Part shown: positions 7,944 through 11,026 of the stretch, piece by piece
Layout: each line of letters opens with the position of its first letter
Position numbering within the stretch: position 1 is the stretch's first letter
Origin: Lachnospiraceae bacterium P6A3
Lineage (GTDB): Bacteria; Bacillota; Clostridia; Lachnospirales; Lachnospiraceae
Direction: 5' to 3'
DNA length: 64,000 bases
NCBI GenBank assembly: GCA_000702085.1
Contig: KL370861.1
Coordinates: 374,911-438,910, forward strand
Program-made: the position numbers and the translations under genes
Notes under the pieces: generated by a model
Databases searched by the model: none
What the model saw: only the letters and a program-made list of their open reading frames with translations
Told to the model about the DNA's origin: nothing

Positions 7944-7956
7944 TTGTTCGTTGTCT

Positions 7957-8040
7957 GCAGAAGTGGCGGAATTGGTAGACGCGCACGGTTCAGGTCCGTG
8001 TGGGAGCAATCTCTTGAGGGTTCAAGTCCCTTCTTCTGCA
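7957..8040 (+). tRNA. tRNA-Leu (anticodon CAG)
   Basis: 84 nt. The acceptor stem GCAGAAG (7957-7963) pairs with CTTCTGC (8033-8039) and the discriminator is A. The anticodon stem CACGG/CCGTG encloses TTCAGGT, giving anticodon CAG at 7991-7993 (reads CUG). A long variable arm and a T arm containing GGGTTCAAGTCCC are typical of class II tRNA-Leu. No CCA is encoded, so the tail is added enzymatically. Confidence 0.95.
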
Positions 8041-8089
8041 TAATAGAGCAGGGTCTCGTGAGTTTTACTCACGGGACCCTGTTCTATTA
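8041..8089 (+). terminator. Long hairpin directly after tRNA-Leu
   Basis: A near-perfect 23-bp stem (TAATAGAGCAGGGTC arm, wobble pairs at two positions) with a TTT loop starts at the base after the tRNA. There is no following T-run, so it may serve as a terminator or as a 3' processing and stability structure for the tRNA precursor. Confidence 0.5.
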
Positions 8090-8090
8090 T

Positions 8091-8206
8091 GCAGAAGCGA
8101 GATTGAACCCTGAGGGTTCAATCTCGGGGCACTGGGGAGTGCCCCTCGGTCCGCGCAATACTGGCGTCCACCGGACGCCATGCGCCCCTTCTTCTGCACG
8201 CAGAAG
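8091..8206 (+). repeat. Structured REP-like element mimicking parts of the tRNA-Leu
   Basis: GCAGAAG (8091-8097) and CTTCTGC (8191-8197) form an outer stem identical to the tRNA-Leu acceptor stem. Inside are three perfect hairpins: 13 bp with a TGA loop (8098-8126), GGGCACT/AGTGCCC with a GGGG loop (8127-8144), and GGCGTCC/GGACGCC with an ACC loop (8163-8179). It also shares TGAGGGTTCAA and CCCTTCTTCTGCA with the tRNA, in the same order. A third GCAGAAG follows at 8200-8206. This may be a tRNA-targeting or tRNA-derived repeat; function unknown. The rest of the gap, to 8317, holds only an AT-rich stretch and the next gene's leader. Confidence 0.6.
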
Positions 8207-8317: not shown

Positions 8318-8761
8318 ATGAAAATCACTAAAGCGGAAGGATATAAGAAACCCAATTATGCAGTGGCTGTAGCGGCGGCAATGGCCATGGTTACGATTAC
8401 CGGATGCGGCGGCCCCAATCTTGAGGGTGCGGCTACCCTGGCCAATCCTGAAGAAGAGATTCAGTATGCCGGAGATATCTCGGTCGAGCAGATGAACAAT
8501 GTGATCGACTACGATGGCGGACTTGAGATGTATACGGAGCCTGAAGATGAAGTACAGCTTGAGGGAGAAGCAATGCCGCCGATTGATGAATCAGATGGTG
8601 AAGAAGACGGTAAAGAACTTGATGACTCCAAAGAGACTGAGTCTAAAGAGTTCTGCGAATCTGTAGATGACGAGCTTGTTCTTGCGGGAGATGTTACGGT
8701 CTGTGATCCCAATGACGATCTTGTTCTTGAAGGTGGTGCGCCCATATATGAAGAACCCTGA
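8318..8761 (+). CDS. Acidic lipobox-bearing repeat peptide, candidate radical-SAM substrate
   Basis: 147 aa with a strong ribosome binding site (AAGGAGG, then 8 nt to ATG). The N-terminus has a basic region containing GYKKPNYA, a hydrophobic core (about 14-28) and ITGC with Cys30 as a possible lipid-modified cysteine. The mature part is very acidic and contains five copies of a loose motif, hydrophobic-(E/A)-G-x-x-x: LEGAATL (35), YAGDISV (50), LEGEAMP (81), LAGDVTV (122) and LEGGAPI (137). Only two further cysteines occur, each in a Cys-x3-Asp arrangement (CESVD at 113, CDPND at 129). The next gene, 31 nt on, is a radical SAM/SPASM enzyme of the peptide-maturase type. A precursor of a ribosomally made, post-translationally modified lipopeptide is the best guess; a plain lipoprotein is the alternative. 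Confidence 0.65.
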   Translation: MKITKAEGYKKPNYAVAVAAAMAMVTITGCGGPNLEGAATLANPEEEIQYAGDISVEQMNNVIDYDGGLEMYTEPEDEVQLEGEAMPPIDESDGEEDGKELDDSKETESKEFCESVDDELVLAGDVTVCDPNDDLVLEGGAPIYEEP

Positions 8762-8792
8762 AATAACCCACTGAGACTGTGAATACAAAAAT

Positions 8793-9854
8793 ATGAATCT
8801 AACATTACATCTTACAGAAAACTGCAATATGGACTGTGCCTACTGTCTTCGTGAGAAATGTCCTAAGGATATGTCCGAAGATGTACTTTATAAGGCATGT
8901 GATCTTGCTTTTTCAAAGGGGCTCAGAGCAGGACTTTGCTTTTTCGGAGGAGAACCGCTTCTGAAAAAGGATCTTATCTATAAAGCTCTTGATTACTGCG
9001 AAGAAAAGTCGAAGCAGACCGGCATGAGATTTGACTGTAAGATGACTACAAACGGTTCGCTTCTTGATGAGGAATTCCTTAAGCGTGCCGTAAAGGCAAA
9101 GATGGGAATAGGTCTTTCCTTTGACGGAACTGCGCAGGACGTTTGCAGGGTATTTGTGGGCGGAAGACCGACATCACCTGTTGTCGAGGAGAAGGCAAAG
9201 CTTCTTCTTAAGTACATGCCGGATTCGACAGCACTTGCAACCATTGCTCCTCAGGCAGTTCCCTATTATGCGGAGTCTGTAAGATATCTTCATGAGCTTG
9301 GCTTCAAAAAGATTTCCATGGTCATTGCCTACGGCAAAAAAGTCACCTGGAAGGATGAAGATCTTGAACTGTTAAGAGATCAACTGGAAAAGACCTGTGA
9401 TTATATCAGGGAGTTATTCATAAAGGGTGACAAGATATTCGTGGGCCCCGTTTATTCCAAGATCGGTGAATGCATCAGGGATAAGAATCCCGCAGAGAAG
9501 TGTCACCTGGGAGTCCGGCAGACACCTGTAACACCTGCAGGAGAGTTATATCCCTGTACGTCATTTATCGGAGATCCCGATTATCTGCTTGGAAATGTAT
9601 TTGACGGAATCAATGAAGATAAAGTAATTGAAATTGCAAAAAGATCTGCAACACCGGCAACCTGCGTCGGCTGTGATCTCGTAAAGCGCTGTACCAATTC
9701 ATGCGGATGTGCCAACAGGATGAACACCGGTAATGAGAATGAGATTTCACCTCTTCAGTGTACATACGAGAGAATGCTTATAGAGATAAGCGATGCTCTG
9801 GGAGAGGAACTGTATCAAACAGATCCTGCAAGATTTGCAAAAGAATTCGCATGA
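8793..9854 (+). CDS. Radical SAM/SPASM domain protein, probable peptide maturase
   Basis: 353 aa, cytoplasmic. CX3CX2C (Cys11, Cys15, Cys18) in ENCNMDCAYC binds the SAM-cleaving 4Fe-4S cluster; FFGGEPLL is the conserved GGE region. A C-terminal SPASM domain with cysteines at about 237, 255, 291, 294, 300, 304 and 306, plus one in PLQC, would bind one or two auxiliary clusters. Enzymes of this layout install thioether, C-C or related crosslinks in peptides, or act as sulfatase maturases. No sulfatase is nearby, whereas a small repeat peptide lies immediately upstream, so peptide modification is inferred. There is no clear Shine-Dalgarno before this ATG, which suggests low expression relative to the peptide or coupling. 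Confidence 0.85.
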   Translation: MNLTLHLTENCNMDCAYCLREKCPKDMSEDVLYKACDLAFSKGLRAGLCFFGGEPLLKKDLIYKALDYCEEKSKQTGMRFDCKMTTNGSLLDEEFLKRAVKAKMGIGLSFDGTAQDVCRVFVGGRPTSPVVEEKAKLLLKYMPDSTALATIAPQAVPYYAESVRYLHELGFKKISMVIAYGKKVTWKDEDLELLRDQLEKTCDYIRELFIKGDKIFVGPVYSKIGECIRDKNPAEKCHLGVRQTPVTPAGELYPCTSFIGDPDYLLGNVFDGINEDKVIEIAKRSATPATCVGCDLVKRCTNSCGCANRMNTGNENEISPLQCTYERMLIEISDALGEELYQTDPARFAKEFA

Positions 9855-9871
9855 TAATTTAACAATGACTC

Positions 9872-9917
9872 AGGGAACTTTTTAATGATAAAATACCAAA
9901 AAGTTCCCTATTTTTTT
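9872..9917 (+). terminator. Intrinsic terminator after the radical SAM gene
   Basis: A 12-bp stem AGGGAACTTTTT/AAAAAGTTCCCT with a 14-nt loop is followed by ATTTTTTT. The start of the next gene lies only 20 nt further on. Confidence 0.85.
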
Positions 9918-9937
9918 ATTTAAACGCAGAGGAATAA

Positions 9938-11026
9938 ATGATGGCTGAAGAGTTTTTGACATTAATGGCTGATCTGGATGAAGAATCCCAGAAAATATTG
10001 AGCGGATGGTATGAGAAACTGCGTGAACAGGGCTTTACCGGTGTGCAGACTCAGAACCTTCCGTTTCATATAAGCATGGGCTCATTTTCATTGGATAAGG
10101 AATCTGAAGTTGTTGAAGAGATGAAGAAGCTCTCTGACCGCTTCCCGGTCATTCCTGTTCATATCAGCCATATCGGATTGTTTGAGGGTGGAAGAGTTCT
10201 GTATGCCGCTCCGGATATGAATCCTGCAGGTCTTCTGGATTTAAGACAGGCTATTCAAACGCAGACCGCTGAGAAATATCCGTGGACACCTCATTGTACT
10301 ATCATGATCGATGATGCCGAAACCATACAAAAAGCAATGCCGGTCCTGGTAAACAGTTTTCATACGTTCATGGCTAAGGTGACGAAATTGCACCTGTGTG
10401 CTTTTTGGCCGACCAGGGAGATTGCATGCGTAAATCTGGGCACATATCCTCCCGCTTCCGAGGCGGAAAGACTTTTGGAGGAGGCGGAAAGCTGTAATCC
10501 CGGACCTTGGGGAGATCACAGCAGGACCGCTGCGCATTGTGCCAAGGCAATAGCTGCAAGATCCGGAATGAATTCTGAAAAGGCATATGTTCTGGGATTG
10601 CTCCATGATATCGGACGGAAGTTTGGAAAGAGGCATCTGGGACATGTGTCAGATGGCTATTCCTATATGAAATCTCTCGGTTATGATGATGTGGCACGGA
10701 TTTGCCTTACACATTCTTTTAATGAGAAAGATATATCTAAATACATAGGTAAATTCGATACCACAGAAGAAGAGACAAGTCTGATAAAAGACAGTCTTGA
10801 CGCAGTTGAGCCTGATGATTATGATCGTCTGATACAGCTATGCGATTCCATTTCCGGTGCGGAAGGGGTTATGGATCAGATTGACCGAATGACTGATGTA
10901 AAGAATCGATACGGGGCTTATGATCAGGGTAAATGGGACACCAACATAAAACTTCGTGAATACTTTGAAGCAAAGATGGGCGAGGATCTTTACATAGCGG
11001 TAGATAAAGACAATTACAAACCATGA
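9938..11026 (+). CDS. Fusion of a 2H (LigT-like) phosphoesterase and an HD-domain hydrolase
   Basis: 362 aa, cytoplasmic. Residues about 1-175 carry the two His-x-Ser/Thr motifs of the 2H phosphoesterase superfamily (HIS at 44, HCT at 119), the fold of 2'-5' RNA ligases and cyclic phosphodiesterases. Residues about 180-345 form an HD domain: His194 in WGDHSRT, His223-Asp224 in LLHDIGRKFGKRH, and later His and Asp residues (CLTHSF, LCDSIS). Both halves are metal- or His-dependent phosphoester hydrolases, so the fusion may act on one nucleotide or RNA-end substrate in two steps; the substrate is unknown. AGAGGA lies 4 nt before the ATG; a second ATG follows directly at 9941. It is convergent with the - strand gene at 11066. 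Confidence 0.8.
   Translation: MMAEEFLTLMADLDEESQKILSGWYEKLREQGFTGVQTQNLPFHISMGSFSLDKESEVVEEMKKLSDRFPVIPVHISHIGLFEGGRVLYAAPDMNPAGLLDLRQAIQTQTAEKYPWTPHCTIMIDDAETIQKAMPVLVNSFHTFMAKVTKLHLCAFWPTREIACVNLGTYPPASEAERLLEEAESCNPGPWGDHSRTAAHCAKAIAARSGMNSEKAYVLGLLHDIGRKFGKRHLGHVSDGYSYMKSLGYDDVARICLTHSFNEKDISKYIGKFDTTEEETSLIKDSLDAVEPDDYDRLIQLCDSISGAEGVMDQIDRMTDVKNRYGAYDQGKWDTNIKLREYFEAKMGEDLYIAVDKDNYKP

Follow-up and report, generated by a model that had tools for sequence, protein, structure and literature searches.

What does a radical S-adenosylmethionine (SAM) enzyme with a SPASM domain act upon when the gene directly before it encodes a small, acidic, lipoprotein-like protein with repeated glycine sites? 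The question is raised by a two-gene locus in the rumen bacterium Lachnospiraceae bacterium P6A3 (GenBank assembly GCA_000702085.1, 2.98 Mb in 9 contigs), within the window analysed here, which is the whole 64,000-nucleotide stretch at positions 374,911 to 438,910 of contig KL370861.1. The best explanation, judged probable and well short of certain, is that the locus is a self-contained two-gene maturation cassette, in which the enzyme would modify the Leu-x-Gly (LxG) sites of the adjacent precursor in a cysteine-independent manner and the product would be exported and lipidated.

The precursor consists of a basic N-terminus (MKITKAEGYKKPNYA), a hydrophobic stretch, the lipobox ITGC30 and an acidic tail of 117 residues, and Asp and Glu make up 32% of its mature part. 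It has the signal sequence and lipobox cysteine of a bacterial lipoprotein and, judged by these motifs alone, is probably exported, lipidated and membrane-anchored. The mature region contains six hydrophobic-x-Gly-x sites, compared with a mean of 0.68 in shuffled sequences, none of which reached six in 20,000 trials. G29 and C30 of the lipobox and the glycines of five of the sites are invariant in the 10 aligned genus precursors, and M1, I3, Y9, P12 and A15 in all 16 aligned precursor N-termini. Over all pairs of the 11 genus precursors, the ratio of nonsynonymous to synonymous substitution rates (dN/dS) was lowest at the N-terminus (0.13; 0.25 in the linkers and 0.32 at the motif positions), values that show purifying selection on the precursor. 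It has no match in Pfam at E <= 1, and in NCBIfam none that approaches a cut-off. The preliminary description of this locus had correctly placed the 147- and 353-residue open reading frames (ORFs), the lipobox Cys30, two Cys-x3-Asp sites, the acidic character, the radical SAM/SPASM enzyme and the terminator; its LEG/LAGD-type repeats are also present, in six sites and not the five that it counted. As for their conservation, Leu-x-Gly-[Asp/Glu] is conserved, but the motif ahead of the signal sequence, which had been overlooked, is more so.

Of the 30 other genus genomes, 10 have an orthologue of the enzyme (82-95% identity), and in each of the ten a precursor of the same kind lies just upstream. 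L063 has two precursors in tandem, and in G016 the contig with the whole enzyme begins within a precursor tail, the whole precursor being on another contig beside a partial second copy of the enzyme. A 16-sequence profile of the precursor N-terminus, run against the 31 genus genomes, gave strong matches (E <= 1.1e-16) in exactly the 11 enzyme-bearing genomes and in none of the 20 that lack the enzyme. The raw tally at E <= 0.05 is 22 of 31 genomes and includes weak matches (E >= 0.001); one that was inspected (L164) is a membrane protein with the similar stretch in its interior. The partners were sorted by eye into a repeat kind (type B), to which the window precursor belongs, and a globular kind (type A). 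Because only 7 of 397 family genomes have the enzyme (E <= 1e-40), its distribution is patchy; four of the 397 have a globular partner, all among these seven, the remaining three (G000, G001, G145) have a partner of the repeat kind, and none of the 390 enzyme-less family genomes has a globular partner match at E <= 1e-4. The pairing is beyond chance. The dedicated pair of the preliminary description thus holds, and the homologues without the enzyme that it had suggested looking for did not appear among the 20 genus genomes or, for the globular kind, the 390 family genomes.

The possibility that the genes are merely neighbours and that the enzyme acts on another component of the cell draws on those enzyme relatives that have no visible partner, and is extremely unlikely in view of the perfect co-occurrence in the genus, the retention of the pair in different contexts and the agreement of the partner kind with the enzyme tree, on which each kind requires one change (support of 77 for the repeat kind and 95 for the globular kind). 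The closest relative in a scan of species genomes, which may omit records very near the genome of the window, is L074, an uncultured Lachnospiraceae metagenome-assembled genome with 95% enzyme identity.

The enzyme has the CX3CX2C motif (residues 11-18), the SPASM cysteine pattern and the matching fold of a radical SAM/SPASM protein. Its best NCBIfam model is PapB (NF047865), with 178.3 bits against a cut-off of 340. This match favours a ranthipeptide reading, put forward in the preliminary description as freyrasin-type crosslinks, in which a PapB-like maturase forms thioethers between Cys113 and Asp117 and between Cys129 and Asp133. PapB links Cys to Asp in CX3D, and crosslinks of Cys to either Asp or Glu have been described for it (PMC9413430; this and the other papers are cited for the parts consulted). 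The window precursor has these two CX3D (1.5% of shuffles have at least two), and 10 of the 14 mature cysteines in the 11 genus precursors, counted by eye, have Asp at +4. However, maturases of SCIFF peptides score higher on the PapB model than the window enzyme does (283-300 bits for eight whose SCIFF identity was confirmed), and in the enzyme tree PapB and SCIFF group together, outside the group of the window (SH-like approximate likelihood-ratio test, SH-aLRT, 99). Besides, CX3D is missing from 4 of the 11 genus precursors, two of these four having no cysteine after the lipobox, and is present in only 12 of 39 repeat-type partners. Because 15 of the 39 have no cysteine after the lipobox, cysteine cannot be required, and the thioether reading is very unlikely.

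Membership of PapB was accordingly rejected, the score being below the cut-off and the CX3D core not being conserved (7 of 11 genus precursors); the single protein over the PapB cut-off in 250 family genomes was L167, with 385 bits. The window enzyme reached 121.3 of 425 bits on the SCIFF model TIGR03974, on which real SCIFF maturases scored 686-758 (8 of 8 scanned), and 114.5 of 350 bits on the CXXX-repeat maturase model TIGR04115, again below the cut-off. TIGR04133 is not among the best 25 of the 72 families listed for it, the last of which score about 43 bits.

The evidence for the LxG sites as targets comes from the repeat-kind partners, which have an acidic tail with LxG sites, up to about ten copies in relatives, and in some cases, for example L084, L086 and L096, an added C-terminal domain. 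Around the glycine in 39 of these partners, there are hydrophobic residues at -4, Leu at -2 (5.3 times background), Val at +2 (2.9 times) and Val or Ile at +4. Counted over all glycines, Asp at +1 is 1.5 times and Glu 1.2 times the acidic background, and after L-x-G an acidic residue follows at 72 of 109 sites (66% versus 26% background). A site matrix trained on close relatives was tried on 20 distant partners and was significant (p <= 0.002) in four of them: L069, L099, L107a, which is one of two L107 partners, and L125, a Tat-signal protein from Myxococcota. The repeats are taken as the modified sites because they occur in up to about ten copies, keep five of their glycines in 10 of 10 aligned genus precursors and are present with a myxococcotal enzyme. 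The alternation of hydrophobic residues around the glycine is also compatible with epimerisation within h-x-L-x-G-D-V-x-V stretches, which would leave the mass unchanged and give an unusual strand structure, and radical SAM epimerases do act repeatedly along one peptide (PMC8326336); this chemistry is regarded as unlikely.

Globular partners have PxF-x-H-G-x-G-x-G-x-x-G-C followed by about 180 residues. In a 20-row alignment, left after removing six divergent rows from 26, an N-terminal Pro and Tyr, Gly97, Gly102, Cys103, Glu114 and Asp170 are invariant; the cysteine is not universal in the wider 26 rows. No scanned partner of either kind reached a curated Pfam or NCBIfam cut-off. Relatives of 66-87 residues, with the N-terminal motif kept, are encoded directly before the enzyme in L075 (1267-1482), L081 (4797-4994) and L076 (4736-4996) and have a TAG[IA]V-type site at their end, which in L075 and L081 is the only one; they are possible minimal substrates. 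In L153 (Riflebacteria), the partner upstream of the enzyme has CxG[DE][VI]A[ML]P repeats, with Cys replacing Leu, possibly a thioether-forming variant of the LxG site, for which the site matrix was not significant.

Beyond the genus, a scan of species genomes with the enzyme alignment gave at least 80 loci, of which the best 80 were kept; much of the enzyme family is known from metagenome-assembled genomes. Nineteen of the 80, at 46% enzyme identity or more, are from gut and rumen Bacillota, and the others from further Bacillota, Bacteroidota, Firestonebacteria, Hydrogenedentes, Lentisphaerota, Planctomycetota, Myxococcota, Acidobacteriota, Verrucomicrobiota and others. At many loci, an exported neighbour has a motif close to MK[IV]xPxKxY[KR]xPxY[PA] ahead of its signal sequence. 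A profile of this motif, trained on 21 close sequences alone and applied to the N-termini from 20,688 start codons at the 80 loci, gave 8 matches at E < 1 in 7 of 61 distant loci, all of them adjoining the enzyme and on its strand. A strict rule, which asks for PxY[PAIV] and then a hydrophobic stretch in a neighbouring ORF of the same direction, held at 49 of the 80 loci in several phyla (15 of 19 at 46% identity or more, 21 of 32 at 32-45% and 13 of 29 at 27-31%), compared with no SCIFF-maturase locus out of 43 and with 3 of 24 loci of other radical SAM enzymes in the P6A3 genome. In the first two bands, the misses are contig ends (L085, L095, L102), near-motifs (L087, L088, L099, L101, L103, L113, L124), a degenerate motif (L107), motif-less exported partners in Fibrobacter L120 and in L141, and absent partners in L116 and, on the upstream side, L090. 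A single system is strongly indicated down to about 32% identity and weakly below it.

An all-against-all comparison of the ORFs flanking the enzyme at 89 loci showed that the pair stays together across differing gene contexts, with the repeat kind beside the enzyme and on its strand at 19 loci and the globular kind at 11. Other widely spread clusters are histidine-kinase-like (9 loci), ABC-ATPase (5) and mixed (5); their distances vary and they occur on either strand, as large families would be expected to, and further clusters are common to close relatives alone. The pair has no conserved third gene at these loci, be it a protease, a transporter or a separate protein with the recognition element (RRE) of ribosomally synthesized and post-translationally modified peptides (RiPPs). 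Distant enzyme relatives in L136, L137, L143, L149 and L150 (archaea, Chlorobium/Chlorobiaceae and Saprospiraceae) adjoin another small protein, which has a motif of the PHxHYKGxxYxLD type and lacks an obvious export signal; it may belong to a separate family of radical SAM substrates.

Several observations weigh against modification of the LxG sites or against one system throughout the family. The strict rule fails at 31 of the 80 loci, 16 of them in the 27-31% band, and L090 has no partner in the 5 kb upstream; motif profile scores in that band exceed those of the SCIFF controls (p = 4e-5) and are not above those of control loci of the same genome as the window (p = 0.55). The site matrix gave p values of 0.035-0.045 in L120, L121 and L126 and was null by site count in 13 of the 20 distant partners, including all of the Akkermansia type. 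Globular partners have no repeats and have an invariant Gly-Cys (20 of 20 rows), so that a single chemistry would need to cover both. By the crude measure of dN/dS, the motif positions of the precursor are no more constrained than its linkers. Because the N-terminal motif, and not the repeats, is best conserved across partners, the repeats could be incidental. This motif, conserved across partner kinds and phyla and lowest in dN/dS, might itself be modified at Tyr9, Pro12 or Tyr14, for instance as an export check-point, with the acidic repeats left unmodified. Against this, signal peptidase would strip such a modification, a short recognition motif can be conserved without any need to be modified, and in the window protein, as in four distant partners, LxG sites recur well beyond chance expectation; it is decidedly unlikely.

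Modification at the LxG sites by a two-gene cassette is retained as the preferred explanation, and the following course is proposed for it. The cytosolic radical SAM/SPASM maturase would act on the product of the gene just before it, recognizing MK[IV]xxxxxYKKPxY[AP] within the positively charged stretch that precedes the hydrophobic core of the export signal. The motif is most economically assigned to enzyme docking because it is the best conserved element and would be discarded on export by any of the routes found among the partners (lipobox, signal peptidase I-like or Tat); lying within the export signal, it would make the signal peptide double as a RiPP leader peptide. The h-x-L-x-G-[DE]-V-x-V sites, six here, would then undergo C-H chemistry that does not depend on cysteine; its simplest form would be oxidation of a residue, aliphatic or acidic, beside the conserved glycine, with a loss of about 2 Da per site. 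The modified chain would be exported by Sec, lipidated at Cys30 and cleaved by signal peptidase II, a cut that would also discard the recognition motif; the acidic, modified protein would stay attached to the membrane on its outer side. The earlier view of the repeats as likely modified cores of a membrane-anchored product is in this way supported, as an inference from sequence.

The features of the locus are collected in the table. The two genes are on the same strand with a gap of 31 bp, between tRNA-Leu(CAG) and a gene for a 2'-5' RNA ligase-like/HD protein, and AGGAGG precedes the precursor ORF.

Table. Positions of the features of the precursor-enzyme locus in the window.
Feature	Position	Strand	Remark
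tRNA-Leu(CAG)	7956-8041		upstream of the pair
Precursor/substrate lipoprotein, 147 aa, type B (LxG repeat kind)	8318..8761	+	ORF; genus orthologues beside enzyme
N-terminal motif MKITKAEGYKKPNYA	8318..8362	+	ahead of hydrophobic signal core; proposed recognition sequence
Lipobox I27-T-G-C30	8396..8407	+	from sequence; expected signal peptidase II site and lipidation Cys
LxG site 1, LEGA, aa 35-38	8420..8431	+	Gly37 invariant in 10 aligned precursors
LxG site 2, YAGD, aa 50-53	8465..8476	+	Gly52 invariant in the same 10
LxG site 3, YDGG, aa 65-68	8510..8521	+	Gly67 invariant in the same 10
LxG site 4, LEGE, aa 81-84	8558..8569	+	Gly83 invariant in the same 10
LxG site 5, LAGD, aa 122-125	8681..8692	+	L122 and Gly124 invariant in the same 10
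LxG site 6, LEGG, aa 137-140	8726..8737	+	some orthologues without it
Radical SAM/SPASM maturase, 353 aa	8793..9854	+	without N-terminal RRE extension
CX3CX2C radical SAM cluster motif (C11, C15, C18)	8823..8846	+	invariant in 15/15 aligned relatives
SPASM cysteines C237, C255, C291, C294, C300, C304, C323	9501..9761	+	invariant in 15/15 aligned relatives
Intrinsic terminator	9871..9919	+	16-pair stem (stem-loop 9871-9910), then T-run; stem reported on minus strand in hairpin listing, T-run read on plus strand
Fused 2'-5' RNA ligase-like and HD domain protein, single ORF	9938-11026		after terminator

Between the tRNA and the precursor (8030-8200) there is a long and nearly perfect inverted repeat, which takes in the last bases of the tRNA (TTCTGCATAATAGAGCAGGGTC and its near-complement) and is followed by two more hairpins. 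A tRNA-Leu(CAG) is just upstream of the pair in five genus loci (the window, L057, L058, L060 and L063), the pair of L061 is just downstream of a tRNA-Leu(AAG), L064 has a partial tRNA-Leu 3 kb off, and the remaining loci show no such tRNA. In L061, the ORF beyond the enzyme is presumably an insertion sequence (IS)-type transposase. The pair may be a mobile cassette using tRNA sites.

Lipidated RiPPs are known in the form of the DAG-RiPPs (DybA/DybH, NedA/NedBC), which, like the system proposed here, combine a small precursor bearing a lipoprotein signal with a dedicated oxidative cytosolic enzyme and subsequent lipidation, and some of whose substrates are larger exported proteins (PMC12636315). 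They differ in using an MNIO enzyme (DybH, NedBC), whereas the window enzyme is a radical SAM protein and not an MNIO; the ChrH/DybH subfamily has a C-terminal recognition motif, while the shared motif is N-terminal here; and Cys, dispensable here, is part of the MNIO target motifs that the same paper names (PMC12636315). With a lipobox present and the modification predicted, the MNIO-made DAG-RiPPs would be the nearest precedent. In a survey of MNIO clusters, most MNIO precursors are reported to carry Sec signals, which are described as rare among bacterial RiPPs (PMC12452194). No radical SAM counterpart is described in the parts examined of PMC12636315 and PMC12452194; the term 'radical SAM' has no occurrence in the former and two in the latter, with their context outside the parts seen.

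For the chemistry, a precedent is offered by TvgB, a radical SAM enzyme (IPR023867 subfamily) that forms poly-cyclopropylglycine by modifying several copies of a short Cys-free motif in which Gly and an aliphatic residue occur, with -2 Da for each (PMC9062424). The TvgB precursor repeats are TVGG, as opposed to LxG[DE] here, and its five-gene cluster includes a dioxygenase and transporters, no lipoprotein signal being mentioned in the parts consulted (PMC9062424). PapB/freyrasin maturases are the best NCBIfam match of the window enzyme and share with it the SPASM architecture and a multi-site precursor; the differences are the low score of the window enzyme on their model, the lack of a conserved CX3D in the precursors here, the export signal of the window precursor and the grouping of PapB with SCIFF. 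The anaerobic sulfatase-maturing enzymes (anSME) and the SCIFF maturase CteB act on substrates different from those here, and CteB has an RRE domain, which the window enzyme lacks (PMC8326336).

The models TIGR04133 (named rSAM_w_lipo) and TIGR04134 represent a predicted pair of a radical SAM/SPASM enzyme and a lipoprotein with a range in Bacteroidetes. The name suggests that such a pairing had been predicted before, but the proteins here do not match: the relative L069 scores 50.3 of 425 bits on TIGR04133, and the window precursor has no TIGR04134 match at E <= 1. No name or description of pairs like the present ones was found in the open-licence literature, which is weak evidence.

Radical SAM peptide maturases are usually found through small leader-bearing peptides. 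Here, similar pairs could be sought simply by the N-terminal motif, and a cassette of two genes would be easy to test. Somewhat more tentatively than for the cassette itself, the pairs may represent an unnamed class, spread over several phyla, of radical-SAM-modified exported proteins in which the n-region of an export signal, of the Sec lipoprotein, Sec signal peptidase I or Tat type, serves as the leader. A single enzyme family would then place a cysteine-independent modification at x-G-[DE] sites, either at one position of a globular domain or repeatedly along acidic LxGD repeats, and the modified proteins would be displayed at the cell surface. Since the repeats can be free of Cys, the chemistry would be other than that of thioethers. 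Since the recognition motif would lie inside the export signal, neither a protease nor a transporter would have to be dedicated to the system, and its product would be a modified protein anchored in the membrane.
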